Origin: Tenacibaculum sp. Bg11-29
GTDB lineage: Bacteria; Bacteroidota; Bacteroidia; Flavobacteriales; Flavobacteriaceae
Direction of reading: 5' to 3'
DNA: 64,000 nucleotides
Assembly: GCF_002836595.1 (NCBI RefSeq)
Contig: NZ_PJBB01000003.1
Span: 3,626,501 to 3,690,500 of the forward strand
In this document: positions 34,163 to 51,808 of the stretch, in pieces
Position numbering within the stretch: the first letter of the stretch is position 1
How the letters are laid out: each line of letters begins with the position of its first letter
Translations under genes and position numbers: made by a program
The notes under the pieces: model-generated
Databases searched by the model: none
What the model saw: only the letters and a program-made list of their open reading frames with translations
What the model was told of the DNA's origin: nothing

Positions 34163-34194
34163 CAAAAAAAGGCTGTCAATAAACGACAACCTTT
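34163..34194 (-). terminator. Rho-independent terminator after the slipin gene
   Basis: Read on the minus strand, AAAGGTTGTC and GACAGCCTTT form a 10-bp stem with one G-U pair, followed by a run of seven T. It starts 2 bases after the slipin stop and ends the first RNA-repair transcript. Confidence 0.9.
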
Positions 34195-34196
34195 TA

Positions 34197-35297
34197 TTAT
34201 TTATTCGCAGCAAAAATTTCTTTTAATTGCTTTACCATATTTCCGTTTCCAGAAACAGAAATCTCTCCTACTTTATCTGCAATTTTCTCAACATATTCCA
34301 TTTCTTTTAATTTGAATAACATTTCGTTACTTTCCATTAATTTAGCAGTGTTTAATAAACTTCTAGTAGAAGCTGTTTCTTCTCTTCTAGTAATTATATT
34401 AGCTTGTGCCTTTTTTTGAGCAATTAAAACCTGATTCATAATCTCTTTCATATCTCCAGTTAAAATTACATCTCTAATTCCGCAGTTAATAATTTTCACC
34501 CCCAATTCATCGGTGTTTTTAGATACTTCATTAAATACAGCTGTTGCAATATTTTCTTTTTCAGCTAATAATTCATCTAGAGTATACGTACCAACATACA
34601 TTCTTAATGCCAATTGCATTAATATATATAATTGCTTTTCATACTCTTTGTTTTCTAACAACGCTTTTTCAATAGCAACAACTTTATATTGTGTGTAAAA
34701 ATTGATTCTAATCGTTGCTTTATCTTTGGTTAATAACTCTTGTCCTGCTATTTCTAATTGTAATTGCCTCATATCTGCTTTTGCAATTTTAATAGTTGTA
34801 TCATTTTTCCAAAATCGATACGTTCCACCTGTTAAGGTTTTAATGTGTGCATCATTAACTAGTAATACTGCTTTTTCATAAGCTGCTACTTCAAATATTC
34901 TAATGTACTTGTTAAATTCATAGTTACTAAACAATGCTTTATCAATAGCTTCTGTAATATAAATTTTACTGATGTCAATCTTCTGAAATCTTCTATTTAC
35001 AAAACCTTTCCAATAAAAATATCTCCCCGCTTGTAAGACCCTCGTAAAGTTATCATTCTCATAAATAATAACCAATTCATTATCTTTTACATTAACAACT
35101 TCGAGCATTTCAGCTAAAACAATGTCTTTTAATAAAATTTCTATCGCTACAGCCGCATTAAATTCTTTTGTTAAATCATATATAATTACGTTTTGGTTTA
35201 AAAATAACCAATGGCTTCCTTGTGTAATTACCTTTTGATAATCTCCATTTTTAAATATTAATCCTACTTTTCCTGTATTAATTCTTACTCTTTTCAT
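34197..35297 (-). CDS. Slipin / SPFH (band 7) domain protein
   Basis: 366 residues of the stomatin/prohibitin superfamily. A short N-terminal beta-rich part (KRVRINTGKVGLIFKNGDY) is followed by the band 7 core (DKATIRINFYTQYKV, ALRMYVGTYTLDELLAEKENI, GVKIINCGIRDVIL) and a coiled-coil tail with QKKAQANIITRREE. No membrane anchor is visible at the N-terminus, so it may be peripheral or soluble. Slipins are recurrent neighbours of RtcB RNA-repair genes. Here it is last in the minus-strand run rtcB-prfH-TPR-tRNA-like RNAs-slipin, just before a terminator. The biochemical role in repair is unknown. Confidence 0.87.
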   Translation of the reverse strand: MKRVRINTGKVGLIFKNGDYQKVITQGSHWLFLNQNVIIYDLTKEFNAAVAIEILLKDIVLAEMLEVVNVKDNELVIIYENDNFTRVLQAGRYFYWKGFVNRRFQKIDISKIYITEAIDKALFSNYEFNKYIRIFEVAAYEKAVLLVNDAHIKTLTGGTYRFWKNDTTIKIAKADMRQLQLEIAGQELLTKDKATIRINFYTQYKVVAIEKALLENKEYEKQLYILMQLALRMYVGTYTLDELLAEKENIATAVFNEVSKNTDELGVKIINCGIRDVILTGDMKEIMNQVLIAQKKAQANIITRREETASTRSLLNTAKLMESNEMLFKLKEMEYVEKIADKVGEISVSGNGNMVKQLKEIFAANK

Positions 35298-35629
35298 TTT
35301 TTATAATTTTTAAATTCTGATAATTTATTCTTTATTAATTTCAGAATGATTCATTTTATATAACATTCTCTGTAACGGAGAAATATGTGTTAATTTTAAA
35401 AACGATACGCTAAAATGCTTAACAAATTACGGAAGTGATTGGTATAAAAAAGTTTGAAACTTCTTTTTAAAAATGGATTGAATTCATAAATAAAATCAAC
35501 TGATTTATAAAAAGTTATTCCTTACTATTTTTAAAACTAAAAACTTCAAAGTTCTTTTTTAAGTGTTTATTAAAAAACTCATTTAGAACGTATCGTTTTA
35601 TTTTTTAATAATCAGTTTTACAAGGTGAT
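35298..35629. other. AT-rich spacer between the tRNA-like RNAs and slipin
   Basis: No gene is recognised in this 332-bp stretch. It is AT-rich, with only weak hairpins such as AACATTCTCTGTAACGGAG. It probably carries the 3' tail of the RNA and the slipin leader. Confidence 0.5.
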
Positions 35630-35685
35630 TAGCTTAAGGGGCTTTACTCAAGCCAAGAGGTTGGACTCGAACCAACTCGCCCTGA
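35630..35685 (-). ncRNA. Third T-arm-like element of the tRNA-mimic cluster
   Basis: On the minus strand a T arm (GTTGG-TTCGAGT-CCAAC, 35676-35660) is followed by CTCTT and a small hairpin (GGCTT and AAGCC arms). The bracketing AAGCC/GGCTT stem could enclose the T arm. No D arm or matching acceptor strand is apparent. It may be the 3' end of the RNA carrying the two modules upstream, or a decayed module. Confidence 0.45.
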
Positions 35686-35699
35686 GGCTTACCATAATT

Positions 35700-35768
35700 A
35701 CTAGAACCGAAATCTAGTGCATTTGACCGCTCTGCCATATCCTTTCGGATAGTGGGATTCGAACCCAC
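35700..35768 (-). ncRNA. Permuted tRNA-like module B (Y RNA-like)
   Basis: Minus strand, 5' to 3': T arm GTGGG-TTCGAAT-CCCAC (35768-35752); acceptor strands TATCC and GGATA closed by GAAA (35751-35738); D-like arm GCA..GCGGTC..TGC (35735-35719); anticodon-like arm with perfect 6-bp ACTAGA/TCTAGT stem and 7-nt loop TTTCGGT (35718-35700). The order is circularly permuted relative to tRNA: the acceptor is a closed hairpin, not free ends. The tRNA-mimic modules of bacterial Y RNAs (YrlA) also carry D-, T- and acceptor-like elements. It lies between the TPR gene and slipin in the rtcB-prfH run. Confidence 0.72.
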
Positions 35769-35780
35769 GAATTTTTCTAT

Positions 35781-35834
35781 TGCATTAACCGGACTGTGCT
35801 ACATAACTTTCGTTATGGAAGGATTCGAACCTTC
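35781..35834 (-). ncRNA. Permuted tRNA-like module A (Y RNA-like)
   Basis: Minus strand: T arm GAAGG-TTCGAAT-CCTTC (35834-35818), immediately followed by a perfect 6-bp acceptor-like stem CATAAC/GTTATG closed by GAAA (35817-35802), TA, then a D-like arm GCA..CCGGTTAA..TGC (35799-35782). Same order as module B, 13 bases downstream, separated by AATAGAAAAATTC. Two tandem modules with matching T loops, GAAA closures and GG-containing D loops argue against chance. The 5' part of the RNA probably extends to about 35890. Confidence 0.72.
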
Positions 35835-35976
35835 GTATATAGAGTGAGATTATTTTTTGGGAAATAATCGAAACCTTCAAGACTAGTTGCATATAAAAAC
35901 CGAATACAAAAACTGTACAGATTTATACAATGGTGCTATACAGAAACACACAACAAGACTTGCTTGATATTTTTAA

Positions 35977-36142: not shown

Positions 36143-36673
36143 TTACTTTTTTTTCGCTTTTTTGCCTGTTTTAGTACGTTTGCTCTTCTTTTTCTTTGGC
36201 ATTTTTTCTTTAACTCTTTCTTTCTGTTCTTTTATAGTTTGTATAAACTCTGAATTAAAAGCGTTTTCTTTAGCTAATTTGATAAAACTCAATGCAATCT
36301 TGTACTTTTTAAGTTGCTCATTTAAAGCTGCCTTTTTTAAGTATAATAGTGCTTTATCTGATCCTTTTACCGTTAATGCAAAATCAATAAAAGTATCAGC
36401 TTCTTTTACATCTTCATTCCATAATAACACATTAATATAATGTGTATATACCTCAAAAGCATTGATATTTATTGCTAGTACCTCTTTGTAATAACCAATC
36501 GCCTCAGTATACTTATATAACCTTTCGGCATATACCCTACCCATTAATGTTAATGCCATGGTATTTTTATCATCATATGATAAGGCATAATTTAAGGACT
36601 CCATTGTTTCTTCTAAATCGTAGTGATAAGAATCTAGTGCTTTAAAAACGTAATTATTTATACTATTCCCCAT
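36143..36673 (-). CDS. TPR protein with a Lys-rich C-terminal tail
   Basis: 176 residues. Helical TPR-like units run from about residue 10 to 135 (MALTLMGRVYAERLYKYTEAI; ALLYLKKAALNEQLKKYKIALSF in pieces). The last 30 residues are strongly basic (KKKKSKRTKTGKKAKKK), suggesting contact with RNA or ribosomes. It follows prfH by 92 bp, with a dispersed repeat between, on the same strand. No family function is recognised; a role in the RNA-repair operon is inferred from position and the basic tail. Confidence 0.7.
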   Translation of the reverse strand: MGNSINNYVFKALDSYHYDLEETMESLNYALSYDDKNTMALTLMGRVYAERLYKYTEAIGYYKEVLAININAFEVYTHYINVLLWNEDVKEADTFIDFALTVKGSDKALLYLKKAALNEQLKKYKIALSFIKLAKENAFNSEFIQTIKEQKERVKEKMPKKKKSKRTKTGKKAKKK

Positions 36674-36765: not shown

Positions 36766-37458
36766 TTATTCTAATTGTTTTCTTAAATCGGTTTTTAACT
36801 GACTTCGTTTTGTTTTAAAAGATTTCTCTTGCTTTTTTTGTTTAAAATCAGAACCTGTAAATATTCTTACAGGGTTTCCTCTTTCTAAACTTAAATGGTT
36901 TTCCCATTCACTTTTTACAGCTTCTTTTAACTGATTTGTATTGTGCTCTCGAATCTTTTCTTTTAAGCGTTCTATCGCTATTTTTTTATTTTGATGTTGA
37001 GAACGACTATCCATTACCAAAACTTGAATTCCTGTTGGTGTATGTTTTGCTCTTACAGCAGAACTTACTTTGTTTACATGTTGTCCGCCAGCTCCAGAAC
37101 TTCTAATAGCCTGAAATTGAATTTCATTTTCATTGATTGTTTTTTCTTCAAATTGATGTAATTCATAACATCCTATAAACCAATTTTTACGTTTATGATA
37201 TTTTCTGAATGTTGATGTGCCAATCCATTGAATTGAGCCTAACCAATCGTTTAAAAATTCGGGAAGTTGTTTTCCTTTTAATTCTATACTAACTGATTGT
37301 ACCGTGCCATTCTCTATTCCGTTTTCTTTGTGAAGAATCTGATATACAATCTTATTATGTATCAATTCTTTTAAAAATAGTTTTAACACTTTGGCTACTA
37401 CCCAAGCACATTCTGCGGGTCCTTTTGCAGCTGTTAATTGTATTATTTTAGTTTTCAT
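36766..37458 (-). CDS. prfH: Peptide chain release factor-like protein PrfH
   Basis: 230 residues carrying the catalytic GGQ loop of class I release factors (SSGAGGQHVNKVSSAVRAKH, about residues 119-138) and the basic C-terminal helix (ERGNPVRIFTGSDFK). It lacks the codon-recognition domain of RF1/RF2, as in the PrfH family. PrfH is typically encoded beside RtcB; the pair is known to deal with ribosomes whose 16S rRNA has been cut at the decoding centre, PrfH freeing the peptide so RtcB can religate the RNA. The rtcB gene is directly upstream on the same strand with a 222-bp repeat element between. Confidence 0.92.
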   Translation of the reverse strand: MKTKIIQLTAAKGPAECAWVVAKVLKLFLKELIHNKIVYQILHKENGIENGTVQSVSIELKGKQLPEFLNDWLGSIQWIGTSTFRKYHKRKNWFIGCYELHQFEEKTINENEIQFQAIRSSGAGGQHVNKVSSAVRAKHTPTGIQVLVMDSRSQHQNKKIAIERLKEKIREHNTNQLKEAVKSEWENHLSLERGNPVRIFTGSDFKQKKQEKSFKTKRSQLKTDLRKQLE

Positions 37459-37494: not shown

Positions 37495-37677
37495 CACTTG
37501 CGTTAGGGATTGAAGCGGCATCCTTTTTATAGCTTATATAAATACGCGTCATTGCGAGGTACAAAGCAATCTGTTAATCGATTATAAGATTGCCACTGTT
37601 TACAAAACAGTAAACTTCGCAATGACAGCTATAAAAAGATATAGTGTAAAGCCCGACCTTTAGGTAACGCCCAAAGA
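37495..37677. repeat. Composite dispersed repeat with a nested REP element
   Basis: The outer ends match the repeat at 4096-4192: GCGTTAGGGATTGAAGCGG at the left; AAAAAGATATAG, AAGCCCGACC and GGTAACGCCC at the right. A second palindrome, CGTCATTGCGAGG..AAGCAATCT with GATTGCCACT..CGCAATGAC (about 37549-37626), sits inside, so one repeat family has inserted into the other. It separates rtcB from prfH. Confidence 0.8.
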
Positions 37678-37680
37678 ATG

Positions 37681-39072
37681 CTATTTGTCCATTCGAACAA
37701 TTTTAGGTGTAAATGTTCCTAACACTTCAACCAATTCTTGTTGATTACTCATTACTTTTTTAATGTTTTTGTACGCCATTGGTGCCTCATCAATTCCGCC
37801 CCCAATAAGACTTACATCATTCATTTTTAATTGATGCTTAATTTCACTTTTGGTAAATTTTTCTTTACATTTTTTGCGAGAAAACAAGCGTCCTGCACCG
37901 TGTGAAGCAGAATTTAAACTTTCGTTATTTCCTAAGCCTCTAACAATATATCCTGGCGCTGTCATAGAACCCGGAATAATACCTAACTGTCCTTTATTTG
38001 CAGGTGTTGCTCCTTTTCTATGTACAATTAATTCTTGTCCATTTATTTGTTCTTTCCAAGCAAAATTGTGATGATTCTCTATTTTAGCAATAGCTTTTGC
38101 ACCTAATAACTTACCTATACGTTTGTGAATATTATCATGACAAGCCTTTGCATAATCTCCAGCCAAATTCATTGCCAACCAATATTCTTGTCCGTCGTGG
38201 GTATTTAAATCTAACCACGCCAAATGCTGTACATTTTTAGGAAGTGGACATTGTTTTGTTGCCAAATACGTGTAGTGTTTGGCTATGTTAGCTCCAAAAC
38301 CTCTACTTCCGCTGTGGGTTAATAACCCTACATATTCACCAATTGGTAAATCAAACTCATTATTCGCATCTGTAATATTTACAGTTCCAAACTCCACAAA
38401 ATGGTTTCCTCCTCCCGAGGTTCCTAATTGTTTATAGGCTTTGGTTTTTAAGCGTTTTAATAACGGAATATCATTAAATTCAGTACGTTCAAATATTTCA
38501 TGATCGTGTTTTACATTGTGTGTTTCACGCATTCCAAATTTGGTATGTTCCGACAAGATATTTTCTAACTGGTGTCGTTTTCCTTTTAAATAAGATGCTT
38601 TTATCGGGTAAATTGTTAAACACATTCTACATCCAATATCTACTCCTACTCCGTACGGAATTACTGCATTTTTAGTAGCTAAGACTCCGCCAATTGGCAA
38701 GCCATACCCAGCATGTGCATCGGGCATTAAAGCGCCTTGTACCGCTATTGGTAATTTTAAAGCATCATACAATTGATATTTTGCTAAGTCGTCAATTTCG
38801 TTTTCTCCGTAAATTGTAAAGGGTGCTCTGGTATTTTTTAATTGATGAAAACGTACTTCTACGGGTTTTATTAATCCTTCAACTACTTTTCCCCAAATGG
38901 CATTTCCCTGAAACTTTTCTGGTGTTAACAGCACTTCTTTCGCTTCTTCTAAAATGCGTTCTTTCTTTTCTTTTTTACGGTACCTGTTTATTTGACCTAA
39001 AGCAATATTGATACTATTATTCTTTGGAAACCCTAATTTTATTAGGTCTTTTCCCTTTAATTTATTTCCCAT
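37681..39072 (-). CDS. rtcB: RtcB family RNA ligase (PrfH-associated)
   Basis: 463 residues of the RtcB RNA-splicing ligase family, which joins 2',3'-cyclic phosphate or 3'-phosphate to 5'-OH RNA ends using GTP and Mn2+. Metal and catalytic motifs are intact: GVGVDIGCRMC (Cys ligand, about residue 145), GTSGGGNHFVEFG (about 220), LTHSGSRGFG (about 252) and the guanylylated His in SASHGAGR (about 389). It heads the run with prfH, a TPR protein, tRNA-like RNAs and slipin. A long leader with its own promoter and terminator hairpin precedes it. Substrate is probably damaged rRNA, from the PrfH pairing. Confidence 0.95.
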   Translation of the reverse strand: MGNKLKGKDLIKLGFPKNNSINIALGQINRYRKKEKKERILEEAKEVLLTPEKFQGNAIWGKVVEGLIKPVEVRFHQLKNTRAPFTIYGENEIDDLAKYQLYDALKLPIAVQGALMPDAHAGYGLPIGGVLATKNAVIPYGVGVDIGCRMCLTIYPIKASYLKGKRHQLENILSEHTKFGMRETHNVKHDHEIFERTEFNDIPLLKRLKTKAYKQLGTSGGGNHFVEFGTVNITDANNEFDLPIGEYVGLLTHSGSRGFGANIAKHYTYLATKQCPLPKNVQHLAWLDLNTHDGQEYWLAMNLAGDYAKACHDNIHKRIGKLLGAKAIAKIENHHNFAWKEQINGQELIVHRKGATPANKGQLGIIPGSMTAPGYIVRGLGNNESLNSASHGAGRLFSRKKCKEKFTKSEIKHQLKMNDVSLIGGGIDEAPMAYKNIKKVMSNQQELVEVLGTFTPKIVRMDK

Positions 39073-39192
39073 GATTTAATTTTGAGATGTTTTTTCTACG
39101 GAAGCCAATTTTTTAATTGGTTTCCTTTTAAAATTCCTACTTAGGCAGGAAAACTATAAACTTCGAAAAAATCCCTTGGAAATAAACTCCAT

Positions 39193-39227
39193 AAAAAAAG
39201 TCCGAAATTTTAAAACTTCGGACTTTT
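39193..39227 (-). terminator. Intrinsic terminator/attenuator in the rtcB leader
   Basis: Read on the minus strand, AAAAGTCCGAA and TTCGGACTTTT form an 11-bp stem followed by TTTTTTTA. It lies between the promoter at 39420-39451 and the rtcB start, so it ends a ~200-nt leader RNA or attenuates the operon. Confidence 0.85.
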
Positions 39228-39245
39228 CATATATAATAGTGTTTG

Positions 39246-39332
39246 CTATGTATAGTGTGGAAAGTCGCGAAGTAAACAATAAAAAGAACCTAGTTCTCTT
39301 TGTATGTTTTTGTTGAATAATGTATTTAACAT
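39246..39332 (-). CDS. Possible 28-residue leader peptide upstream of rtcB
   Basis: An ATG at 39332 (minus) opens a 28-codon frame ending TAG at 39248-39246, 19 bases before the terminator hairpin. The product begins MLNTLFNKNIQREL and ends with aromatic and basic residues. Its place between a good promoter and a terminator makes a leader peptide possible, but the length is within chance and no family is recognised. Confidence 0.3.
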   Translation of the reverse strand: MLNTLFNKNIQRELGSFYCLLRDFPHYT

Positions 39333-39419
39333 GTACTTCGTTTTTAATTTTATTGAAAGATCTTTATACTGTACTTAAGGTAACATTTCAATAATAATGT
39401 TTTGTGCTTTATTGCGATG

Positions 39420-39451
39420 CAAACTTATAACGTGTTTTTGAATTACACAAA
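39420..39451 (-). promoter_or_regulatory. Bacteroidota-type promoter for the rtcB-prfH run
   Basis: On the minus strand, TTTG (39451-39448), 20 bases, then TAAGTTTG (39427-39420). This is an exact match to the -33/-7 consensus TTTG-N19-21-TAnnTTTG. Transcription would start near 39412 and pass through the leader frame and terminator into rtcB. Confidence 0.7.
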
Positions 39452-39616
39452 TAAAATTAAATAATAATTACCTAAAAATCAACCAGTTAAAAACAATATA
39501 GGCATTAGATTTCCTGCCCACTTTTTGTAGATTCTTTAATTGACTGATTCTTTGTTAAGTACCTTTTTTGCTACACGATTCAAATTGGTTTTCAGGCTTT
39601 TAAATTTTTTATAAAA

Positions 39617-39649
39617 AAAAGCGTCCAAAATTTAATTTTGGACGCTTTT
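39617..39649. terminator. Perfect 14-bp terminator hairpin
   Basis: AAAAGCGTCCAAAA (39617-39630) and TTTTGGACGCTTTT (39636-39649) are separated by TTTAA. Runs of A and T on both sides allow use in either direction. It ends the minus-strand transcript of the S24/S26-like gene and a 21-codon frame. Confidence 0.88.
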
Positions 39650-39669
39650 ACTTTTTATGGTATAAATTT

Positions 39670-39735
39670 CTACCTAAAATACAACTCACAAAGTCGCATT
39701 TTTGCGTCCTGATATGTGATTTTTTGTATTATCAT
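39670..39735 (-). CDS. Possible 21-residue small protein
   Basis: A minus-strand ATG at 39735 opens 21 codons, ending TAG at 39672-39670, 20 bases before a strong terminator. The peptide begins MIIQKITYQDAKMR. It is downstream of, and on the same strand as, the S24/S26-like gene. Coding is possible because the terminator follows so closely, but there is no family evidence. Confidence 0.3.
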   Translation of the reverse strand: MIIQKITYQDAKMRLCELYFR

Positions 39736-39828: not shown

Positions 39829-40116
39829 TTATAGTATTTCTACTACTTTTCCATACACATTTTTTGTCCATCCGTTAATTCTCCCTCGGTTGTTACCTAT
39901 TAACAATCCTCGTTTGTCATTTTTACCTTTTACAAGGTGCGTAAAGCAGTTTCCACGAACTTTACAAAAAACAATATCTCCAACTTCGCAATTTCCCCAA
40001 ACAATAGGTTGTAACCGTACTGGTTGTTTCGACTTTAAAAGTGGTAACATAGAATTACCTGGTTCTTTTGAAATAATGGTTTCATCATTAAGTAATTTTT
40101 GAATTTTCCAATTCAT
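39829..40116 (-). CDS. Small S24/S26 peptidase-like protein
   Basis: 95 residues. The motif PGNSMLPLLKSKQPV resembles the SxSMxPxL serine motif of S24/S26 (LexA/signal peptidase) folds. The remainder (VWGNCEVGDIVFCKV; LLIGNNRGRINGW) fits the beta-rich core, including a GD-V turn. There is no DNA-binding domain and no membrane segment, and a catalytic Lys is not certain, so protease activity is unproven. It has its own promoter and hairpin leader and lies between rtcB and the glycosyltransferase. A link to RNA repair is only positional. Confidence 0.7.
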   Translation of the reverse strand: MNWKIQKLLNDETIISKEPGNSMLPLLKSKQPVRLQPIVWGNCEVGDIVFCKVRGNCFTHLVKGKNDKRGLLIGNNRGRINGWTKNVYGKVVEIL

Positions 40117-40682: not shown

Positions 40683-42077
40683 ATGAGTATAGGAACTATT
40701 AATTTAAAATCATTACATACCAAATATCCTAGAGCAAACCAAAAAACGACTCCAATTAACTTTCGAGCTCTTCTTATTATGGTGAGTTCATTTGCTATTA
40801 TGATTAGTGCTACTTATTCTGTTTACTTATTACAAGATGATTTTTCAAAATTCAATTTCGAAAGATTAAATACAACTTGGGGTTTTACCTTTTTTATACT
40901 TGCTGCCACATTGTTTGCTTTTGGAGCAATGACTTTTATTTATGATTTATACTTATATTTTAAATACAAGCCAATAGCATCTGTAAATGATAACGAACTG
41001 CCTACTATTACTGTTATAGTACCTGCTTATAATGAAGGTAAACAGGTTTTAGAAACTTTAAAAAGTTTAGATAAAAGTGATTATCCTAAAGAAAAATTAC
41101 AATTATTGTCTATTGATGATGGTAGTAAAGATGATACTTGGTATTGGATGCAAGAAGCTAAAAGAATTTTAGGTAGTCAAGTTACTATAATGCAACAACC
41201 TAAAAATATGGGTAAACGTCATGCCTTGTATCGTGGTTTTAATATTGGTACAGGAGAAGTTTTTGTAACAGTTGATAGTGATTCAATAGTAAAAAAAGAT
41301 ACGCTTCGTAATTTAGTAAGCCCAATAGTTATTGATAAAAAATGTGGCGCTGTAGCTGGTAACATTCAAGTATTAAATAACAAAAAAGCTTTATTACCTA
41401 AAATGCTAAATGTAAGTTTTGTAATGAGTTTTGAATTTAAACGCTCTGCTGAAAGTAGTTTAAATTCTGTTTTATGTACTCCTGGTGCATTAGCTGCTTA
41501 CAGATCAACTGCCGTTTTTGCTTGTTTACCAGAATGGATTGATCAAAAATTTATGGGTAAATCATCTGATATTGGTGAAGATAGAGCGTTAACAAACATG
41601 ATCTTAAAACAAGGCTATAGCGTTTTATTTCAAAAAAATGCATATGCATATACAAATGTACCTGAAGATTATATAGGCTTATATAAAATGTTTATTAGAT
41701 GGGATAGAAGTAATGTTCGAGAAAACATTGCGATGTCTAAATATGTATTTACAAATTTTAAAGAAGATAATAAATTTGGGGCAAGATTATTATTTGTTAC
41801 CCAGTCAATAAAAATGATTATGTCATATCCTTTTTTATTATTTATGCTATATTTCTTATTAACTCACCCCGTTTTATTTATAAGTTCTACTTTATTTAGT
41901 ATTTTGATAGTATCAACGTTCCCCGTTTTATTTTATGCTAAAAGATATGATTCAAAAGAAGCTTTCTGGGCATATTCTTATAGTATTTTATATACTTTTG
42001 GATTATTCTGGATTACTCCATACGCTATTGCTACTGCAGGTAAGAGTGGATGGTTGACTCGTGAAATATCTGCATAA
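40683..42077 (+). CDS. Hyaluronan/chitin-synthase-like family 2 glycosyltransferase
   Basis: 464 residues. Two N-terminal transmembrane helices (about 28-50 and 75-100) precede a GT2 domain. Key motifs are DDGSKDDT (about 145), DSDS (about 198), GEDRALTN (about 298) and IRWDRSNVRE (about 338, the (Q/R)xxRW-like polymerising motif). Two or three C-terminal helices follow. This layout matches processive synthases of the HAS/NodC type, which build and export a beta-linked polysaccharide. It is a single + strand gene with a terminator directly after and does not belong to the minus-strand runs. The product sugar is unknown. Confidence 0.9.
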   Translation: MSIGTINLKSLHTKYPRANQKTTPINFRALLIMVSSFAIMISATYSVYLLQDDFSKFNFERLNTTWGFTFFILAATLFAFGAMTFIYDLYLYFKYKPIASVNDNELPTITVIVPAYNEGKQVLETLKSLDKSDYPKEKLQLLSIDDGSKDDTWYWMQEAKRILGSQVTIMQQPKNMGKRHALYRGFNIGTGEVFVTVDSDSIVKKDTLRNLVSPIVIDKKCGAVAGNIQVLNNKKALLPKMLNVSFVMSFEFKRSAESSLNSVLCTPGALAAYRSTAVFACLPEWIDQKFMGKSSDIGEDRALTNMILKQGYSVLFQKNAYAYTNVPEDYIGLYKMFIRWDRSNVRENIAMSKYVFTNFKEDNKFGARLLFVTQSIKMIMSYPFLLFMLYFLLTHPVLFISSTLFSILIVSTFPVLFYAKRYDSKEAFWAYSYSILYTFGLFWITPYAIATAGKSGWLTREISA

Positions 42078-43712: not shown

Positions 43713-44763
43713 TTTGTGTGTAGTGTTCGTTTCTTATAGAAATTAACAGTGAATTAATTTTCTGTGAATCTGGTTTTTCTAACAAATCCGATGCGTGATA
43801 AACCAACTCTAATTCTTCTTTCATTTCTTCTGCTCTACTTACCAAATCATCATATTCATATTCAGCATTTTTTATAGCTAACAAAAACTCTCTATCGTTT
43901 CGTCTTACATTAATAGTTCCATCTTTTCCAATTTCTTTTGCCATGTGCAATAATCGAAAAGTATGCATCATATTTTTAGCATCATAATTCTTATCATGAG
44001 AAATATTGCTTTTATAGCGTTCATCATTTCTTTTTTCAACCCAAGACCAGTACTCTTTATATTTTTTGCAATACGATGAATAACCATCCAAATTACAATA
44101 TAACATTGCTATTGGTTGTTCTTCTTTTGAAATAGAACTCGTACAAACTTCATTTGCACCTTCTCTTGAGATTCCTTTGTAATTTGAAGACTTACTATAA
44201 AATAAATTAAAGCAATTTTTCATATTCGGTATTTTTGCTAATCCGATATTTTCTTTTTCTAATGATTTTTCTTTTAGAAAGTCTTCAATTTTTATAGCTC
44301 TCTTGTCTGTTCTTATAACACAAAAATCATCTATTGTTTTACGTTCTTTTTCAACAGGATTAACAATTTTCTTATTTAATCCTCTTGCTTTTTTAATTTG
44401 TGTAAATGCATAATTAGCAAAAGTGTTTTCACATAATTTAGATAAAAAATATTCTTTTTTAATCTCATTAAATAATGGATGCTTGTATAAAGTACAATCT
44501 TCAGGGACGTTTAGCATTTCTAAAATATTCGGATTATTTCTTGAACATAACTCCATAAATTTTCTTAATTCATAATAAACAATATCATTCGTTTCATTAT
44601 TTATTTGCCCAATGTAATCTAAAGAGTAAAACTGTTCTTTTGGTAAAACAAACACGCCTCTTATATCTCTATCAGAGGTTGGTGTTTGTAAACCATAAGC
44701 TCTACTCCCACTTATACATTCAAAAATAATACTTCCTGATTTTTTTAGTTCTTCTAGTGTCAT
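43705..44763 (-). CDS. RlaP-type nucleotidyltransferase (pol beta superfamily)
   Basis: 352 residues. The nucleotidyltransferase signature is near the N-terminus: GSRAYG at 19-24 and the metal-binding pair D31/D33 in TSDRDIRG. It matches the YcgL/RlaP group of predicted nucleotidyltransferases, named for recurrent association with RNA ligases. It would add nucleotides to, or otherwise process, an RNA end before ligation. A second, shorter RlaP-like gene lies 91 bp upstream beyond a dispersed repeat, and DUF434 overlaps its end. The exact reaction is not established. Confidence 0.85.
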   Translation of the reverse strand: MTLEELKKSGSIIFECISGSRAYGLQTPTSDRDIRGVFVLPKEQFYSLDYIGQINNETNDIVYYELRKFMELCSRNNPNILEMLNVPEDCTLYKHPLFNEIKKEYFLSKLCENTFANYAFTQIKKARGLNKKIVNPVEKERKTIDDFCVIRTDKRAIKIEDFLKEKSLEKENIGLAKIPNMKNCFNLFYSKSSNYKGISREGANEVCTSSISKEEQPIAMLYCNLDGYSSYCKKYKEYWSWVEKRNDERYKSNISHDKNYDAKNMMHTFRLLHMAKEIGKDGTINVRRNDREFLLAIKNAEYEYDDLVSRAEEMKEELELVYHASDLLEKPDSQKINSLLISIRNEHYTQNG

Positions 44764-44854: not shown

Positions 44855-45598
44855 TTAAATATATTTTAGAAAAAATGCATTGAACTTGTTAGGGTTCGAT
44901 TTCTTATTTGTTAAACTACTTTTAAGAGAGTTATTCTCTGCTATAATCACTCTAACTAAATCAATCAACTCTTCTGCTACATTTTCAGTACTCTTTTCAA
45001 TTCGTTTGCTTTTTAGTTGAATCAATTCATCTATTTTACCATGAAAATTTTCGTCAACCAATTCGTATAAGTACTTAAAACATACTGGAGGAATTGTGTT
45101 TTTCTTTACAATCCAATTCACGCAAAGTGCTGTACGAATTGTATAAAAAAAACTCTTCAAGGTCATACTTTCTGTTCCTAAAGTTTCTTCAAAACCTTTA
45201 TTCATAGAATGGAAATGATAAAAGCCAGCAACAGGATTAAAATTATCATTCGCTAATTGTTTAATTTCTTTTAGAAAAACAGCATCTGATTTATAAACAA
45301 CAGGTGAAAATAACCAGCCTGTAAATGAAGCATTCGACTTAGATAATAATCGTAGTGCTTTTCTTATGTCCCAACCAACACCATCCAAATCATCTTCTGT
45401 CATAAATTCAATCGTATCTTTTTGTTCCCAAAGGTTCAAATACCAAGCTGTTTTATGTTTGTATACAAAACGAATGTCATAATCGGAATCTGGAGAAGCA
45501 AAGCCCCAAGCTCTACTTCCCGATTCTACTGCTAATAAAATTTCGATATTATTATCTTTTTCTATTTTCTCTAAGTGTTCTAAAATTCTCTTTCCCAT
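44855..45598 (-). CDS. Second RlaP-type nucleotidyltransferase
   Basis: 247 residues. The signature VESGSRAWGFASPDSDYDIR holds GSRAWG at 27-32 and the catalytic D39/D41. The remainder is the helical domain common to the RlaP/YcgL group (LLSKSNASFTGWLFSPVVY; HFHSMNKGF). It is about 100 residues shorter than its neighbour at 43705-44763 and clearly divergent, so the two probably have different jobs. It belongs to the minus-strand rtcB2 run, with 140 bp separating it from the upstream unknown gene. Confidence 0.85.
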   Translation of the reverse strand: MGKRILEHLEKIEKDNNIEILLAVESGSRAWGFASPDSDYDIRFVYKHKTAWYLNLWEQKDTIEFMTEDDLDGVGWDIRKALRLLSKSNASFTGWLFSPVVYKSDAVFLKEIKQLANDNFNPVAGFYHFHSMNKGFEETLGTESMTLKSFFYTIRTALCVNWIVKKNTIPPVCFKYLYELVDENFHGKIDELIQLKSKRIEKSTENVAEELIDLVRVIIAENNSLKSSLTNKKSNPNKFNAFFLKYI

Positions 45599-45738: not shown

Positions 45739-46371
45739 TTATATTAAACCTAGTATTCCTTTCAATAAATCGATAATTTTATTCGACAGACTTTTACTTT
45801 GTTCTATTGAAGTATACTTAGTTTTTATAATGTTGTTTTTATGCTCTTCTTCTTTTTCAATTATACATTTTAAAAAACCTTTCCAATCATGACTTTTTTT
45901 AAAAAAGTTAAATTTTAAAATAACTTCTTTAGAGTACATTATAGCTTTAGCTATCCCTTCCGCTTCAGATAGATGATAATAATCGTCACCAAATGATGAT
46001 GGCATACTAATATTTAACATATAAAATTCATGTAACATATCAAGTTCATAATCATTTTGTACCCATAAACTAGATAAATCACTAATCAATTCTAAAATAA
46101 ATTTATCTGTATCACTACTCAATAAATTTAAACATGAAAAATATATTTTAAAACTTAATAATTCTTCATCAGAGCAATAACATTCAAGTAAATTAAATAA
46201 AGGCTTCTTATAGTTTCCTAATTTATAATTGATATTCACAAAATCAAAAATTAATGTTTTACTATTAAATTGACTTATTTCAACCAATTCATATAGATAC
46301 TTTTCAAAAGTATCTACATCAATTTTATCTATTAATAATTGATATGCTTTTTGTGTTAATTCTTCGTTCAC
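45739..46371 (-). CDS. Unknown helical protein downstream of rtcB2
   Basis: About 210 residues from the GTG at 46371. The frame is open further upstream through a palindromic repeat into the end of rtcB2, but those codons only translate the repeat, so GTG (NEELTQKAYQLLI) is preferred. The protein is helical and acidic in its first two thirds (FEKYLYELVEIS; LISDLSSLWVQNDYEL) with a Lys-rich segment and a hydrophobic C-terminus (IIDLLKGILGLI). No family is recognised. Same strand as rtcB2 and RlaP; it could be a regulator or immunity-like partner, but this is a guess. Confidence 0.55.
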   Translation of the reverse strand: MNEELTQKAYQLLIDKIDVDTFEKYLYELVEISQFNSKTLIFDFVNINYKLGNYKKPLFNLLECYCSDEELLSFKIYFSCLNLLSSDTDKFILELISDLSSLWVQNDYELDMLHEFYMLNISMPSSFGDDYYHLSEAEGIAKAIMYSKEVILKFNFFKKSHDWKGFLKCIIEKEEEHKNNIIKTKYTSIEQSKSLSNKIIDLLKGILGLI

Positions 46372-46386
46372 TATTTCTTGTTTATT

Positions 46387-46419
46387 AAACCTCACAGGTT
46401 TCAAATACCTGTGAGGTTT
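46387..46419. repeat. Perfect 13-bp palindrome after rtcB2
   Basis: AAACCTCACAGGT (46387-46399) and ACCTGTGAGGTTT (46407-46419) flank TTCAAAT. The same core occurs at 9639-9669. It lies 9 bases after the rtcB2 stop and may also act as a weak terminator. Confidence 0.75.
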
Positions 46420-46427
46420 TTTATCTT

Positions 46428-47843
<1,416 letters not shown>

Positions 47844-47940: not shown

Positions 47941-49704
47941 TTATTTAAAAATTGAAATAAAACTATCCTTTTGTAAAGTATCTAAAGAAAAATCATAATC
48001 TGCTTCTACGCTCTTTTTAACAATTTCACCCCCCAATTCTTTTATTATTTTTTTAAAAGATAAAGGCTTGTTCCATTGCTGATATAAAGCTTTTGTAGCA
48101 AGGTTAGAAATTTCAGAAGTACCAGAAACTCTAGTATGACCAGCTCCAAAATTCAATAAAACAAAACATTGCTTTTCTTTTTTAGGTATTAATATTCCTA
48201 GAATGGTTTGTTGTTGTATTGATTTACATTTAATCTCTGTAAAAAGGTTATTAGGGTTCATCATAAAATCTTTAGAGATACTATCTCCTTTACCTATTAC
48301 AATTTTATAATCACAGTCTGATTCTCCTGAATAAACATTACTATTAATCAGCGTAGGTGCATTTAAACCTTTATTTGCATATAAATATTCAACAGCTCCA
48401 TTAGGTGCTGAAGTTATATCGCCTGAATACATTAAATTACTTTCTTCTTGGTTATAAGTACTATTCCAACCTATTTTACCTCCAATATTTAATCCTGATA
48501 AATCTAAATCATCCGCTCCCCAAGCATCTTTCCAATAAATACCAATAGCTAATTTTTTACCATAAAACTTAGTTCCTGTAGGAATATTTCCTACAAACAT
48601 TTTTTCGGAGGTAGGCAACGCATAATTTATATTTTTTGGTAGAAATATTTTTTTTCCTGATAAATTAACTCGCTTCTGTAAATATCTTATTAAGAAACTA
48701 TAGTTTACTTCGTTTACATAATTTACTGCATTTAATTTTACCCACGATTTTCCGTTTCTAATACGATATAAAAAAGTGTCCTGTCCTTTTTTTCTTGTAT
48801 AACAAGCACTTAATGCTTTAAATAAAGCAAAAGGCGTCGCATTATCTAACCAATGTATATCGCTCTCTGTTAAAAGAACATTAGTAACCTCATTTAACGG
48901 GTTTATAATAAGTGGTTTGTGATATTTTTTAGATAATTTACTTATTCTATTAATCACTTTTGATGCGCTATTCTTATACGCTAAAAACAAAGGTTTAAAT
49001 CTATTAAATATCTCTGCCAATTTTTCTAACCCAAATTCTCTAAAAGCAATGGTTGGGTTGTATGTACTATTTTTAATTTCTTCAATTAAATCATTACTTT
49101 TTATTACTAAAGTTGAATCGGTTGTTTTATAAATGATATATCTAAAAAACTCCACAACATTTTCAGGATATATTTTATATGTATCTGCAATTATAACAAG
49201 CGCTTCCTTATTTCTTATATTTTCTTTCCCTGTAAATACATACTTCAATTCATCAACTAATATTGATAATACATCAGCAATTGTTTCTTCTTTTAAAGCA
49301 ATACCAGATTGTAATAATGAAAGGCATTTGGCTCTCATCTCTTCTATTGAGTATGCTTTTATTACTTTGTATTTTATTTTTAAATCAGGAATATTTAATA
49401 CTTCGTTTGGTATATAAACCTCAGCTTTAAAAACAGTTACGTATGTTGAAATATAATGTTGAATTTGTTCAACATATAATTCGAATCGAGTACTTTCTTT
49501 AATACGTTCCCATGATTTATGAAATGTTTTATTTAATGCTTCTCCTGTTAGTTTTTCATTCTCAAAATAATTTAAAATGCCTTCTTTTGCCCACATCGCA
49601 TTTTTTTCAATAATAAAACCATTTTCAGAAATAAAACATTTAGTTAAAGAAGTCTCGTTTGTATTATTAGCAATAACTGCATTGAATAATTTTAATGTTT
49701 TCAT
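47941..49704 (-). CDS. Large helical protein with a TerD-like beta domain (RNA-repair partner)
   Basis: 587 residues from the preferred ATG at 49704 (MKTLKLFNAV); the frame is open to an ATG at 49737. Residues about 90-370 are helical (LSLLQSGIALKEETIADVLS; FALFKALSACYTRKKGQD). Residues about 375-520 are beta-rich and match the TerD pattern: LAIGIYWKDAWGADDLDLSG, GKIGWNSTY, MYSGDITSAPNGAVEYL. It lies directly downstream of tRNA-like RNAs and upstream of rtcB2. Ro60 has a comparable helical-plus-VWA plan and binds Y RNAs in related operons. No TROVE signature was recognised, so a Ro60-like role is a hypothesis from position and shape. Confidence 0.6.
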   Translation of the reverse strand: MKTLKLFNAVIANNTNETSLTKCFISENGFIIEKNAMWAKEGILNYFENEKLTGEALNKTFHKSWERIKESTRFELYVEQIQHYISTYVTVFKAEVYIPNEVLNIPDLKIKYKVIKAYSIEEMRAKCLSLLQSGIALKEETIADVLSILVDELKYVFTGKENIRNKEALVIIADTYKIYPENVVEFFRYIIYKTTDSTLVIKSNDLIEEIKNSTYNPTIAFREFGLEKLAEIFNRFKPLFLAYKNSASKVINRISKLSKKYHKPLIINPLNEVTNVLLTESDIHWLDNATPFALFKALSACYTRKKGQDTFLYRIRNGKSWVKLNAVNYVNEVNYSFLIRYLQKRVNLSGKKIFLPKNINYALPTSEKMFVGNIPTGTKFYGKKLAIGIYWKDAWGADDLDLSGLNIGGKIGWNSTYNQEESNLMYSGDITSAPNGAVEYLYANKGLNAPTLINSNVYSGESDCDYKIVIGKGDSISKDFMMNPNNLFTEIKCKSIQQQTILGILIPKKEKQCFVLLNFGAGHTRVSGTSEISNLATKALYQQWNKPLSFKKIIKELGGEIVKKSVEADYDFSLDTLQKDSFISIFK

Positions 49705-49794
49705 TTTTATCATTTTATAAGTGAGGTATATTATCAATATTTTTTAGGAATACCTTTTACCTATTATTTTATAAAAGACGAAGAGTAAAATGAA

Positions 49795-49909
49795 CCATAT
49801 TCTCTTGCGAGTACTGGAATCGAACCAGTATATAGGAACTCTTTTTGTCTTTTAAACCGACGGAAAGTGTCTTTTAAGTTGAATAGGAACTTTCTTTGTC
49901 CGTTTTTAG
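49795..49909 (-). ncRNA. T-arm-containing RNA segment E of the second tRNA-mimic cluster
   Basis: A T arm (ACTGG-TTCGATT-CCAGT, 49829-49813) follows an AT-rich segment with a GAAAGT/ACTTTC stem and two copies of an AAGTTCCTAT-type motif. No D arm or acceptor partner is found upstream, so it may be the 3' domain of a longer RNA that begins with the tRNA-like module at 50020. It ends near ACTCGCAAGAG. Confidence 0.5.
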
Positions 49910-49970
49910 TGATTCGGGCAGGAATCGAACCTGCGACACATAGTTTGGATCTTATAGGAACTTTGTTTGC
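49832..49970 (-). repeat. Three copies of an 18-nt motif within the RNA cluster
   Basis: On the + strand the word ATAGGAACT occurs at 49832, 49883 and 49954, each time continuing as CTTTTTGTC, TTCTTTGTC or TTGTTTGC. On the transcribed minus strand this reads GnCAAAnAnAGTTCCTAT. It lies once inside the tRNA-like RNA D and twice in the downstream segment. Confidence 0.7.
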
Positions 49971-50020
49971 TTATTTGCGCAAAGTATTTTCTATTGCTCT
50001 ACCTACTGAGCTACCGAATC
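49910..50020 (-). ncRNA. tRNA-like RNA D with an enlarged anticodon arm
   Basis: Minus strand: acceptor GATTCGG (50020-50014) pairs perfectly with CCGAATC (49917-49911), leaving A at 49910. A standard D arm TA-GCTC-AGTAGGTA-GAGC follows, and a perfect T arm GCAGG-TTCGATT-CCTGC (49934-49918) lies at the 3' side. The middle is about 60 nt rather than a normal anticodon arm and variable loop. It contains an elongated stem (ATAG/CTAT, then ACTTTG/CAAAGT) and no ordinary 7-nt anticodon loop. Total 111 nt. It is best read as a tRNA mimic, as in bacterial Y RNAs; a tRNA with an insertion is the alternative. Confidence 0.75.
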
Positions 50021-50115
50021 TATTTATAGTAAAGAACGTCTCTAAAAAATTATCCGTTTTTCTTTTTAACGGAATAATTTTATGCTGTAATTATATATAT
50101 TTCCCTTAACAACAC

Positions 50116-50162
50116 TGCAAATATTCTACATAAGTGCGCAATCTTTTTGCGTAGAAAAAATT
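50116..50162 (-). promoter_or_regulatory. 47-bp conserved upstream element, copy 2 (before the RNA cluster)
   Basis: Nearly identical to 47894-47940. Read on the minus strand it contains an inverted pair TTCTAC/GTAGAA, a CGCAA-N5-TTGCG dyad and AATATTTGCA near the expected -7 box. RNA D starts about 95 bases downstream. It lies between the divergent HD/WYL genes and the minus-strand run, where a WYL regulator would be expected to act. Confidence 0.6.
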
Positions 50163-50193
50163 AATTGCTATTTTTATTGAAATTTTTATGTAA

Positions 50194-50808
50194 ATGGATT
50201 TAAAAAAGCGATTTCACAAATTAGTTTCAAACTATACCAAAGATGAAAACCGAATAGAATCACTATGGATAGACATTCATAAACATTATTCTGAAAAACA
50301 TAGAGCATACCATAATCTTACCCATTTAAATGAAATTTTTAAATATGTTGATGTATACAAGCAGCATATAGAAAACTATGATTGTTTGGCTTTCTCTATT
50401 TTTTATCATGATGTTATTTATAATATTTGGAAACAAGACAATGAAGAAAAAAGTGCTGATTTTGCTGTTAAGCAACTATCAAAAATAAATATTGAAACTT
50501 CTTTTTTAGAAAAAATTTATCAGCAAATAATAGCAACTAAAACACATGAAACAACTGACAAGGATACCAAGTGGATGGTAGATTTCGACTTGGGTATTTT
50601 AGGAGTATCTGCTGAGACTTACATTAATTACACGAAGCAAATTAGAGAAGAATACAAGTTAGTACCCAAAATACTTTATAAAAAAGGTCGTAAAAAAGTA
50701 CTGCAACATTTTATAGATAAGCCCTTTATTTATGCCACAGAAGAATTTAGAAACTTATATGAAGACCAAGCAAAACACAATTTAACTAATGAATTAAACA
50801 AGTTGTAA
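50194..50808 (+). CDS. HD-domain metal-dependent phosphohydrolase
   Basis: 204 residues of the COG4339-like HD superfamily. Metal-binding residues are seen in YHNLTHLNEI (His40, His44) and FYHDVIYN (His72-Asp73), with a later Asp in WMVDFDLGILG. Such enzymes hydrolyse phosphomonoesters or diesters. It is divergent from the tRNA-like RNA/TerD-like/rtcB2 run and ends 1 bp before the WYL regulator, so the two are one operon. Trimming of RNA-end phosphates is a reasonable hypothesis; the substrate is not shown by the sequence. Confidence 0.85.
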   Translation: MDLKKRFHKLVSNYTKDENRIESLWIDIHKHYSEKHRAYHNLTHLNEIFKYVDVYKQHIENYDCLAFSIFYHDVIYNIWKQDNEEKSADFAVKQLSKINIETSFLEKIYQQIIATKTHETTDKDTKWMVDFDLGILGVSAETYINYTKQIREEYKLVPKILYKKGRKKVLQHFIDKPFIYATEEFRNLYEDQAKHNLTNELNKL

Positions 50809-50809
50809 A

Positions 50810-51808
50810 ATGGCTTCTAATAAAAATGCACTTATCCGTTATAAAACGATAGATCAATGTTTACGGAATACAATGAAACGTTGGACTTTAAATGATTTAA
50901 TTGATGCTTGCTCTGATGCTTTATATGAGTACGAAGGAAAAGATGTGTATATAAGCAAACGAACTATTCAGTTAGATATTCAGCTGATGCGAAGTGATAA
51001 ACTTGGGTACAATGCACCTATTGAAGTGTATGAACGAAAATACTATCGTTATGCAGAAGAAGGCTATAGTATTATGAATATTCCTGTAACTGATAATGAT
51101 GTAAAAATTATAAATGAATCAATTCAGGTACTTCGTCAGTTTAAAGACTTTTCTTTATTTAAAGAAATGGACGGAGTTTTACAACGATTAGAAGATTCTG
51201 TTTATGCATCGCAAAAAACGAACAGGCCAATTATTCATTTAGATAAGAACGAACAATTAAAAGGCTTGGAATATATTGATCCTATTTACAAAGCTATTCA
51301 AAATAAAAAAGTACTTACAATTACATATCAATCTTTTAAAGCTCATAAAGCGAGTGATATGACGGTGCATCCGCAATTATTAAAAGAATACAATAATAGG
51401 TGGTTTTTATTAGCAACACATAAAAAACAATATATAACACTTGCTCTCGATAGAATATCAAATATTTTTTCTAATGAAAAAATGGAATACAATGATTTAG
51501 CAATTGATGGTGATCTATATTATAAAGATGTAATTGGAGCTACTGTTTCAAACACACGTCCACAACGTATTCAATTTTGGATCGATAAAAAAAATGCTCC
51601 GTATGTAATTACGAAGCCTTTTCATAAAAGTCAACGATTGATTAAACATACCGATGATGGTGTAATTTTTAATATTTTAGTTCAAATAAATTATGAATTA
51701 GAACGTATGATTCTTGGTTTTGGAGATGCTATTGAAATTCAAAAACCTGAAAAACTTCGTAACCGAATGATTACTAAATTACAGAATGCAGTTAGTAGGT
51801 ACTCTTAA
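50810..51808 (+). CDS. WYL-domain transcriptional regulator
   Basis: 332 residues. An N-terminal helix-turn-helix region (KRWTLNDLIDACSDALYEYE; SKRTIQLDIQLMR) is followed by a WYL domain (KVLTITYQSF; HPQLLKEYNNRWFLLATHKK; ITLALDRISNI) and a C-terminal WCX-like extension. WYL regulators sense ligands, possibly nucleic-acid fragments or nucleotides, and are common controllers of defence and RNA-repair loci. It is encoded with the HD gene and divergent from the rtcB2 run, whose upstream element (50116-50162) is a candidate target. It ends just before a convergent terminator. Confidence 0.9.
   Translation: MASNKNALIRYKTIDQCLRNTMKRWTLNDLIDACSDALYEYEGKDVYISKRTIQLDIQLMRSDKLGYNAPIEVYERKYYRYAEEGYSIMNIPVTDNDVKIINESIQVLRQFKDFSLFKEMDGVLQRLEDSVYASQKTNRPIIHLDKNEQLKGLEYIDPIYKAIQNKKVLTITYQSFKAHKASDMTVHPQLLKEYNNRWFLLATHKKQYITLALDRISNIFSNEKMEYNDLAIDGDLYYKDVIGATVSNTRPQRIQFWIDKKNAPYVITKPFHKSQRLIKHTDDGVIFNILVQINYELERMILGFGDAIEIQKPEKLRNRMITKLQNAVSRYS

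Follow-up and report, generated by a model that had tools for sequence, protein, structure and literature searches.

A candidate tRNA-mimic ribonucleoprotein and two structured RNA families in an RNA-repair island of Tenacibaculum

Introduction

In Salmonella, the Ro60 protein (Rsr) and the Y RNA YrlA are encoded in an RNA-repair operon, rsr-yrlBA-rtcBA, and Hughes et al. suggest that the tRNA-like domain of YrlA may act as a competitor of an anticodon nuclease (PMC7790460). The present study deals with an island of RNA-repair genes in Tenacibaculum sp. Bg11-29, found between 34.2 and 51.8 kilobases (kb) of a stretch of 64,000 nucleotides (nt), here called the window, in contig C3 (NZ_PJBB01000003.1) of a 4.54-megabase genome. 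Its main elements are a protein of 590 amino acids (M590), a hairpin module repeated in the leader of the M590 gene and partly joined to transfer RNA (tRNA) bodies (RNA 1), and a second tRNA-like RNA upstream of a slipin gene (RNA 2). In YrlA, the tRNA-like module has a permuted order.

The island resembles the Ro60/YrlA system in the association of a putative helical RNA-binding protein and a tRNA-mimicking RNA with RtcB, and the permuted tRNA modules of RNA 2 also produce sub-threshold YrlA scores. M590, however, has no sequence similarity to the TROVE proteins, presents a TerD fold where Ro60 has its vWA domain, and is encoded in a genome with no TROVE gene. Unlike YrlA, the RNA 1 module lies outside Rfam, has the anticodon arm as its junction with the tRNA body, and is also found with bodies in the normal order, while the phage versions of M590 and the module sit among tRNA genes, which is a further difference.

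Three other systems are comparable in part. The RtcB2-PrfH pair is reported to protect Escherichia coli ATCC25922 against colicin E3 (PMC9223846); in the island, prfH also exceeds the NCBIfam cut-off and has an rtcB gene upstream, whereas this rtcB scores 155.3 against the TIGR03073 cut-off of 271.8, and a larger island surrounds the pair. In Anabaena, RtcB, a slipin, and an array of 26 tRNAs are described as being under one repressor, in response to translational stress (PMC10272220). The combination of rtcB, slipin, and a large additional tRNA array is common to both systems, but the Anabaena genes of this trn array/TrcR regulon are scattered and have an RHH repressor, whereas the present genes are linked, with a WYL regulator nearby and tRNA-mimic RNAs. 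The Listeria phage CKA15 is described as encoding an Rsr-like protein, identified by HHpred, together with putative Y RNAs, which are abundant and lie by its tRNA genes (PMC12282133), and Ro/TROVE proteins are reported from some jumbo phages (PMC7824862). CKA15 and the present system share a putative Ro-like RNA-binding protein and, next to the tRNA genes of phages, non-coding RNAs in abundance, although the CKA15 protein was matched to Rsr by HHpred, and no Listeria phage is found among the tblastn matches listed for M590.

Neither M590 nor either of the two RNAs was met in a literature search, which reached few subscription papers.

RNA 1, the Module of the M590 Leader

The comparison of the M590 leaders reveals a recurrent unit composed of stem A, the motif ANA, a stem B of six base pairs (bp) ending in GU, the motif UCCUA(U), a stretch that varies, stem B’, a C, and stem A’, usually present in two to four copies. 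In an alignment of 38 of these hairpins, taken from viral contigs and bacteria as well as the window, the paired cells amount to 97.4%, against 77.7 ± 1.2% in shuffled alignments, with double-sided changes at nine of the 11 pairs, and a covariation of 0.711, compared with 0.313 when shuffled and at most 0.215 when the partners are slid. The number of further pair types (21) is not above the shuffled level (20.3). RNAalifold, unaided, recovers exactly this structure, and the module matched no Rfam family. On this comparative evidence, RNA 1 is a structured RNA family that is not catalogued in Rfam.

All the copies in the window are on the minus strand. The last module (49717–49764; 43.1 bits with the covariance model R1), which ends approximately 12 nt before the conserved M590 methionine, and a plain hairpin (49856–49903; 49.0 bits) have z-scores of −1.04 and −0.87, respectively, when folded alone. 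The copy between them (49774–49852; 46.6 bits, z −2.36) has a mini-element in its loop, formed by a T-arm and an acceptor sealed by GCAA. The fourth element, at 49910–50020, is a tRNA body in the normal order whose anticodon arm holds the module (Rfam tRNA score 53.5 bits, fold z −3.44). ARAGORN predicted no tRNA anywhere in the window.

The distribution of the module was established using two genome samples (97 related genomes and 395 genomes of the class, with some genomes common to both) and a set of 93 M590 loci, made up of the best 80 of 86 bacterial loci and 13 loci from viral contigs, which were obtained through one scan per collection with a single M590 query. Most of these loci are from Chryseobacterium, so that their counts are not independent, and the genome samples provide the fairer test. 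The R1 model was trained on the 38 hairpins, from 32 sources, including the window, L066 (probably G045:C6), and L068 (probably G366:C2), while L079, L069, and L018 (probably from genomes G025, G061, and G093) and the phages S-CRM01, S-CBWM1, and Phass-1 were outside the training set.

At E ≤ 0.1, R1 returned 70 matches across 25 sources (518 kb), 69 of them within M590 leaders. In the 97 related genomes, the matches at E < 1e-4 are found in G000, G025, G045, G061, G085, and G093, which are exactly the genomes with M590 (Fisher p 1e-9), and in the class sample the matches at this threshold are confined to exactly the four genomes with M590. The strong matches are located in the leaders, on the same strand as M590, and in the genome of the window nothing beyond the three copies in its M590 leader matches at E ≤ 0.01. 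Four weak matches, three in M590-negative genomes (E 0.004–0.008) and one in L004 (E 0.03), were taken as chance.

A pattern scan placed the motif within 900 bp upstream of M590 in 89 of the 93 loci, with one to six copies, mostly three or four; three of the four leaders with no motif are truncated by the end of the contig, leaving L086 as the one genuine miss. With three exceptions among the loci listed, the last copy ends 4–24 nt before the start of the M590 alignment. This heuristic scan is noisy, with 563 matches over the two strands, while a single copy of the sequences after Markov shuffling gave 184, and for this reason the counts are based on the covariance models where possible. That the RNA 1 module and M590 are inherited together is demonstrated by these sequence comparisons.

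tRNA Bodies in Two Permutations

The normal-order tRNA body, with a 7-bp acceptor, a D-arm, a T-arm, and the module in place of the anticodon loop, is present in at least 60 of the 93 loci, in addition to the window (64 distinct pattern matches, one of which is the window’s own copy in L102). When applied to 24 of these bodies (alignment A7), RNAalifold recovers the acceptor, D, and T stems, stem B, and stem A, with 25 pairs, 15 of which have changed on both sides.

The order is inverted in the viral contig L092 and the phage S-CRM01, where the module lies outside and its loop consists of the T-arm, an acceptor with a tetraloop cap (UUAA, UUCG), and the D-arm. These are the only two full permuted tRNAs found for the M590 module; the L092 form folds with a z-score of −3.26, while the folded piece of S-CRM01 ended short of the 3’ side of the module. 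A third form, with only the T-arm and the sealed acceptor, was recognized by eye in the mini-element of the window, and in L041, L080, and S-CRM01. Since both permutations exist, the comparison suggests that it is the three-dimensional shape of the tRNA plus module, rather than the order of the strand, that is under selection.

RNA 2, Upstream of Slipin

The second RNA (35610–35968, minus strand) is approximately 360–450 nt long, and is located upstream of the slipin gene, with the boundaries of the RNA and its permuted modules being set by eye. It begins with 98 nearly invariant nucleotides, which form the 5’ domain (35870–35968 on the minus strand, 113.8 bits with model R2), followed by a hairpin, permuted tRNA modules with a sealed acceptor, and a 3’ hairpin. 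In module 1 (35776–35843, minus strand), an anticodon stem, UCUAU/AUAGA, lies outside a T-arm, an acceptor sealed as AUAAC-GAAA-GUUAU, and a D-arm. Module 2 (35701–35768, minus strand), as read from the sequence, has a T-arm, a GAAA-sealed acceptor, a D-arm, and an anticodon-like arm. Additional units of the T-acceptor-D type are seen by eye in most RNA 2s, though not in L152 or L153.

In 12 aligned sequences, RNA 2 has 54 pairs, with 98.6% of the cells paired, against 89.0% when shuffled, and 22 of the pairs have changed on both sides, against 9.7 when shuffled. In the 5’ domain, stems one and two present no double change, while the tRNA-like part of module 1 corresponds to helices 5–8 of the alignment (A5), with covariation. 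The outer stem of the permuted tRNA also differs in other families, being GCUAU/AUAGC in G069 and CCUG/CAGG in G060, both of which are outside the training set of R2. When module 1 of the window is folded by itself, it forms only the T-arm and the sealed acceptor, with a z-score (−1.31) that is not significant, and the module of L159 is likewise not significant.

At E ≤ 0.01, R2 matched 12 of the 97 related genomes, with one copy in each, always upstream of slipin, and the two slipin genomes with no match have only slipin fragments. Given that ten of these 12 genomes lack M590, RNA 1 and RNA 2 are independent of one another; none of the 12 has a TROVE gene. The Rfam matches in the RNA 2 region of the window, to tRNA (35654–35744, minus strand, 28.7 bits) and YrlA (35758–35851, minus strand, 28.5 bits), are both under the gathering score. 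The best YrlA (RF02553) score, 56.0 bits (E 1.5e-10), is from L140, followed by 43.8, 40.3, 33.4, and 31.9 bits, and RNA 2 stays below the YrlA gathering score of 69 bits throughout the window and the four loci scanned.

On the evidence of this alignment, RNA 2 is a second structured RNA family, which matches no Rfam family at threshold. It probably performs a job related to that of RNA 1, with another partner. An earlier note on this DNA, made from the sequence alone, had recognized two clusters of tRNA-like RNAs, described as permuted mimics. Both regions do hold conserved structure beyond chance, but they represent two distinct RNAs, the slipin leader being a separate family, and the permuted modules of the window are those at 35701–35843, whereas the cluster next to M590 holds a normal-order body, with an insert in the anticodon arm, and a T-arm/acceptor mini-element. 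The module of RNA 1, its link to M590, the tRNA arrays of the relatives, and the versions in phages are additional to what the note describes.

The M590 Protein

The M590 gene (47941–49713, minus strand) encodes a helical N part, which is basic (median isoelectric point 9.2, n = 29), and a C-terminal part for which a fold match identified the TerD fold, in agreement with the TerD-like protein of the earlier note, even though this part matches no Pfam family at E ≤ 0.1. The protein as a whole belongs to no known family, with no match in Pfam, NCBIfam, PHROGs, or PADLOC. The TerD fold stands in place of the C-terminal vWA domain of Ro60/TROVE, and the absence of a visible Ro60 gene, also pointed out in the note, held when TROVE/Ro60 was looked for across the whole genome of the window.

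By sequence, an assignment of M590 to the TROVE proteins was rejected. In hhalign comparisons of the whole protein, the N part, and four sub-regions with 12 Bacteroidia TROVE proteins, the E-values were 0.11–0.52, against 0.06–0.81 for shuffled columns. Foldseek searches of the PDB with the models of the whole protein and the N part produced no match at E ≤ 0.001, a PDB sequence profile search returned only two chance-level rows (E 0.2 and 0.43), and a plasmid search returned no match. In BFVD, matches resembling the full length of M590 were found in Campylobacter virus IBB35, Siphoviridae ctFn287, and Lactobacillus phage LpeD (E 1.7e-16 to 9.6e-12).

M590 in Phages and Viral Contigs

Searches by tblastn also identified M590 homologues in the Synechococcus phages S-CRM01 (34.9% identity, g174) and S-CBWM1 (31.4%), in both of which the gene lies inside an annotated tRNA cluster, and in the gut phage Phass-1 (29.5%), where it is beside annotated tRNAs. 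In S-CRM01, R1 recognized two modules upstream and one downstream of the homologue, and more upstream units are visible by eye, one with a permuted tRNA and one with a mini-element. In S-CBWM1, one module is directly upstream and another is in the tRNA cluster, while in Phass-1 all four lie downstream, beside a transfer-messenger RNA (tmRNA), one of them being weak (E 0.024), and none is upstream. The stretches of these three phages that were read contain no annotated RtcB.

Eight of the 13 viral contigs with M590 have tRNAs in the stretch fetched (5, 18, 13, 5, 5, 17, 7 plus a tmRNA, and 2), and five have none. A scan of 20 viral open reading frames (ORFs) identified RNA ligases in L086, L088, and L096, at most about 4.3 kb from M590, and a terminase in L085.

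The tmRNA of Phass-1 is directly beside the module array (L179, 11174–11902), and in the viral contig L093 a tmRNA comes directly after M590 (6971–8962). Two annotated tRNA pseudogenes downstream of the homologue in S-CBWM1 (L178, 10180–10356) could be mimics.

Conservation of the Island

In the earlier note, the grouping of these genes was to be regarded as fortuitous if they were not conserved together in relatives and were expressed independently; as regards conservation, this does not hold. In the 97 related genomes, RtcB is found in 24, slipin in 14, RlaP in 12, and M590 in six, and every genome with slipin, RlaP, or M590 also has RtcB (p 7e-11, 4e-9, and 1e-4, respectively). A chance grouping was rejected on this co-occurrence and the recurrent gene order. 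M590 is an accessory to the island, being absent from 18 of the 24 RtcB genomes, while its own six genomes all have RtcB, and five have RlaP. TROVE is present in two of the 97 genomes (G085 and G093).

The flanks of the 93 M590 loci, which were fetched up to 10 kb, though often less, and searched by tblastn, matched RtcB in 73 loci, WYL in 69, RlaP1 in 62, and RlaP2 in 54. All 73 loci with RtcB are bacterial, and the 13 viral loci have no match to RtcB, WYL, or RlaP, apart from one similar to RlaP2. Sixteen regions fetched from the relatives contain recurring gene blocks, in part rearranged, as in L149 and L150. In L153, almost the full gene order found here is kept, with WYL, an HD-like gene, rtcB, RlaP1, RlaP2, DUF434, X223, rtcB, prfH, TPR, and slipin in one run, though M590 is lacking.

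Arrays of five to 17 tRNAs precede slipin in L152, L153, L154, L157, L006, and L068. In the eight fetched regions with both TPR and slipin by tblastn, arrays lie between these genes in L153 (five tRNAs), L154 (eight), and L157 (five), a single tRNA-Tyr in L149 and L150, and no tRNA in L151, L155, or L156. In L152, where only slipin was matched, 17 tRNAs come before it, while the arrays of L006 and L068 have seven and 14, and L066 (five) is the same contig as L157.

A larger array is found in L080, of Psychroserpens, with 19 ARAGORN tRNAs (22 in the locus as a whole), as well as Rnl2, RtcB, and two RlaP genes. Between this array and RtcB (5894–12704), a gene for an Rnl2-type RNA ligase, a RimK-like gene, and two R2K ATP-grasp genes surround M590. 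An RNaseH_like gene (PF04308; 4755–5240) comes immediately after the 19 tRNAs, and a gene of similar appearance, by eye, follows the arrays of L006 and L157.

Layout of the Island and Neighboring Features

The island was described in the earlier note as two minus-strand runs containing two rtcB genes, prfH, slipin, two RlaP genes, and DUF434, with divergent HD and WYL genes. These genes are present in the window and recur in the genus, with the exception of HD, for which the gene at 50194–50808 (plus strand) has no HD match in Pfam at E ≤ 0.1, although this small gene also stands beside WYL in L006, L151, and L153. The listed genes do lie on the minus strand, but the interval also includes, on the opposite strand, a gene at 40683–42077 named by eye as GT2-like.

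The first part of the minus-strand series comprises slipin (SPFH/Band_7; 34197–35297; PF01145, 91.8 bits), a TPR-like protein (36143–36673), which is a conserved neighbor with TPR matches under the cut-off, prfH (36766–37458; NCBIfam equivalog TIGR03072, 225.6 bits against a cut-off of 166.65), and the adjoining rtcB (37681–39072; PF01139, 286 bits), which aligns to the RtcB PH1602. A small gene with no Pfam match lies at 39829–40116. The second part, still on the minus strand, begins with X223 (42329–43000; no Pfam match), a conserved neighbor in some relatives, and continues with a protein matching DUF434 and DUF5616 in Pfam (43008–43712), the nucleotidyltransferases RlaP2 (43705–44763; PF10127, 104.7 bits) and RlaP1 (44855–45598; PF10127, 223.9 bits), Y249 (45739–46488), which matches no Pfam or NCBIfam family, and the second rtcB (46428–47831; PF01139, 125.4 bits), which adjoins M590. 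The WYL/WCX regulator (50810–51808, plus strand; PF13280, PF25583) diverges from these genes, together with the small gene at 50194–50808. In a relative (G045:C6:188654-189382), the matched stretch of RlaP1 has an in-frame TAG.

The two ligases were confirmed, with PF01139 above the cut-off in both proteins, and no other RtcB gene was found in the genome. In an HMMER alignment to PH1602, from which we take the columns presumed to hold the catalytic cysteine and histidines, both retain the histidines of GNHF, HxGSRG, and HGAGR, and the cysteine column is aligned in both, though in the second RtcB only within a piece of 2.9 bits.

Other features of the window may be recorded here. In the 757-bp gap upstream of the first rtcB, two terminator-like hairpins with T-runs (39184–39706, minus strand) look like a small RNA or an attenuator; a similar hairpin with a T-run is found near 12520 in L006. 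Flavo-1 RNA (RF01705) matches twice on the plus strand, at 37495–37662, between prfH and rtcB and opposite to them, and at 4093–4171. A DUF805b RNA motif (RF02914, 40.5 bits) lies at 52250–52285 (minus strand), directly upstream of a 113-amino-acid ORF, and a repetitive protein of 4263 amino acids, with long and near-identical internal repeats, is encoded beside the island (20994–33785).

Proposed Mechanism and Alternatives

We consider that there is about an even chance that the island is an RNA-damage response system centred on a new ribonucleoprotein, formed by M590 and RNA 1, which would be similar to Ro60 and its Y RNA and would protect or repair tRNAs, with the binding of the two being inferred. 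The basic helical N part of M590 would bind the module as Ro60 does its Y RNA, with the tRNA body as a bait that recruits or occupies tRNA-handling enzymes, that is, the cognate ligase (RtcB, or an Rnl-type ligase in the phages), the nucleotidyltransferases, and/or an attacking anticodon nuclease, to whose cutting a mimic with no anticodon loop would be resistant. RtcB, RlaP, and PrfH would re-seal and rescue the cut tRNA or ribosomal RNA, and the extra tRNA genes in the cluster of several relatives could refill the tRNA pool. With the last module ending so near the start codon (approximately 12 nt before it), M590 in its free form may also repress its own translation until enough RNA has been made.

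The same features can be read in other ways. The tRNA bodies may be decoys, or sponges, for toxins that target tRNA, such as anticodon nucleases, with M590 only shielding them from decay, as would fit the replacement of the anticodon loop by the module, the sealing of the acceptor in the permuted forms, and the phage tRNA genes that accompany M590, and as is proposed for YrlA in the paper on that RNA (PMC7790460). Many copies of the module have no tRNA body, however, and in the search made for toxins, a PADLOC scan of ten island proteins, only the WYL regulator matched anything; we regard this explanation as rather unlikely. It is also unlikely, and a little more so, that the leader RNA is only a cis-regulator, in which a factor (M590 or another) on the modules controls the expression of M590 and the tRNA bodies act on the messenger RNA as sensors for the state of tRNAs or of tRNA enzymes. 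The position of the last copy, just before M590 in nearly all of the loci listed and also near it in the phages S-CRM01 and S-CBWM1, and the confinement of the strong R1 matches to the leaders, on the same strand, are as expected of such a regulator, but tandem copies and several complete tRNA-like RNAs with ends of their own are more than an operator needs, and copies also lie away from the leader in the three phages.

Archaea splice both intron-containing and permuted tRNA genes, and their introns have a bulge-helix-bulge structure. The insert in the anticodon arm, the permuted forms, and the adjoining RtcB recall this process, in which a nuclease would excise the module and RtcB would join the halves into a normal tRNA. 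This is nevertheless very improbable here, given that the module also occurs as plain hairpins with no tRNA at all, that its 6-bp stem B with ANA/C is unlike the bulge-helix-bulge, and that the three phages have no annotated RtcB in the stretches read. It is more improbable still that the repeats are DNA operators rather than RNA, serving as inverted repeats for WYL or another repressor. Inverted repeats would covary in DNA as well, and the WYL regulator is near most of the loci, but the helices accept G-U pairs (at one position, in 16 of the 38 rows), conservation extends to two asymmetric elements, the ANA/C loop and the UCCUA on one side only, the stretch between the arms varies from about 16 to about 90 nt and may include a whole tRNA body, and the 13 viral loci have no WYL match.

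Implications

If M590 and RNA 1 do form a tRNA-protecting particle, M590 and the module RNAs may represent an independently evolved counterpart of Ro60 and the Y RNAs in the Bacteroidota and in tRNA-rich phages, including cyanophages. It would be a particle dedicated to tRNA defence, with its RNA in two circular permutations of one fold, and the slipin-leader RNA would be a second particle of this type, with several permuted acceptor-sealed tRNAs per molecule, a broader proposal to which we assign somewhat less than an even chance. The findings define two new families of structured RNA and one family of proteins, with concrete partners for them, and offer a testable idea for the large tRNA sets of some phages and bacteria, in which the supply of tRNAs, the RNA ligases, and a tRNA-mimicking particle would travel together. 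The role of the bacterial Y-type RNAs would thereby become directly testable in Tenacibaculum, Chryseobacterium, and isolated cyanophages.

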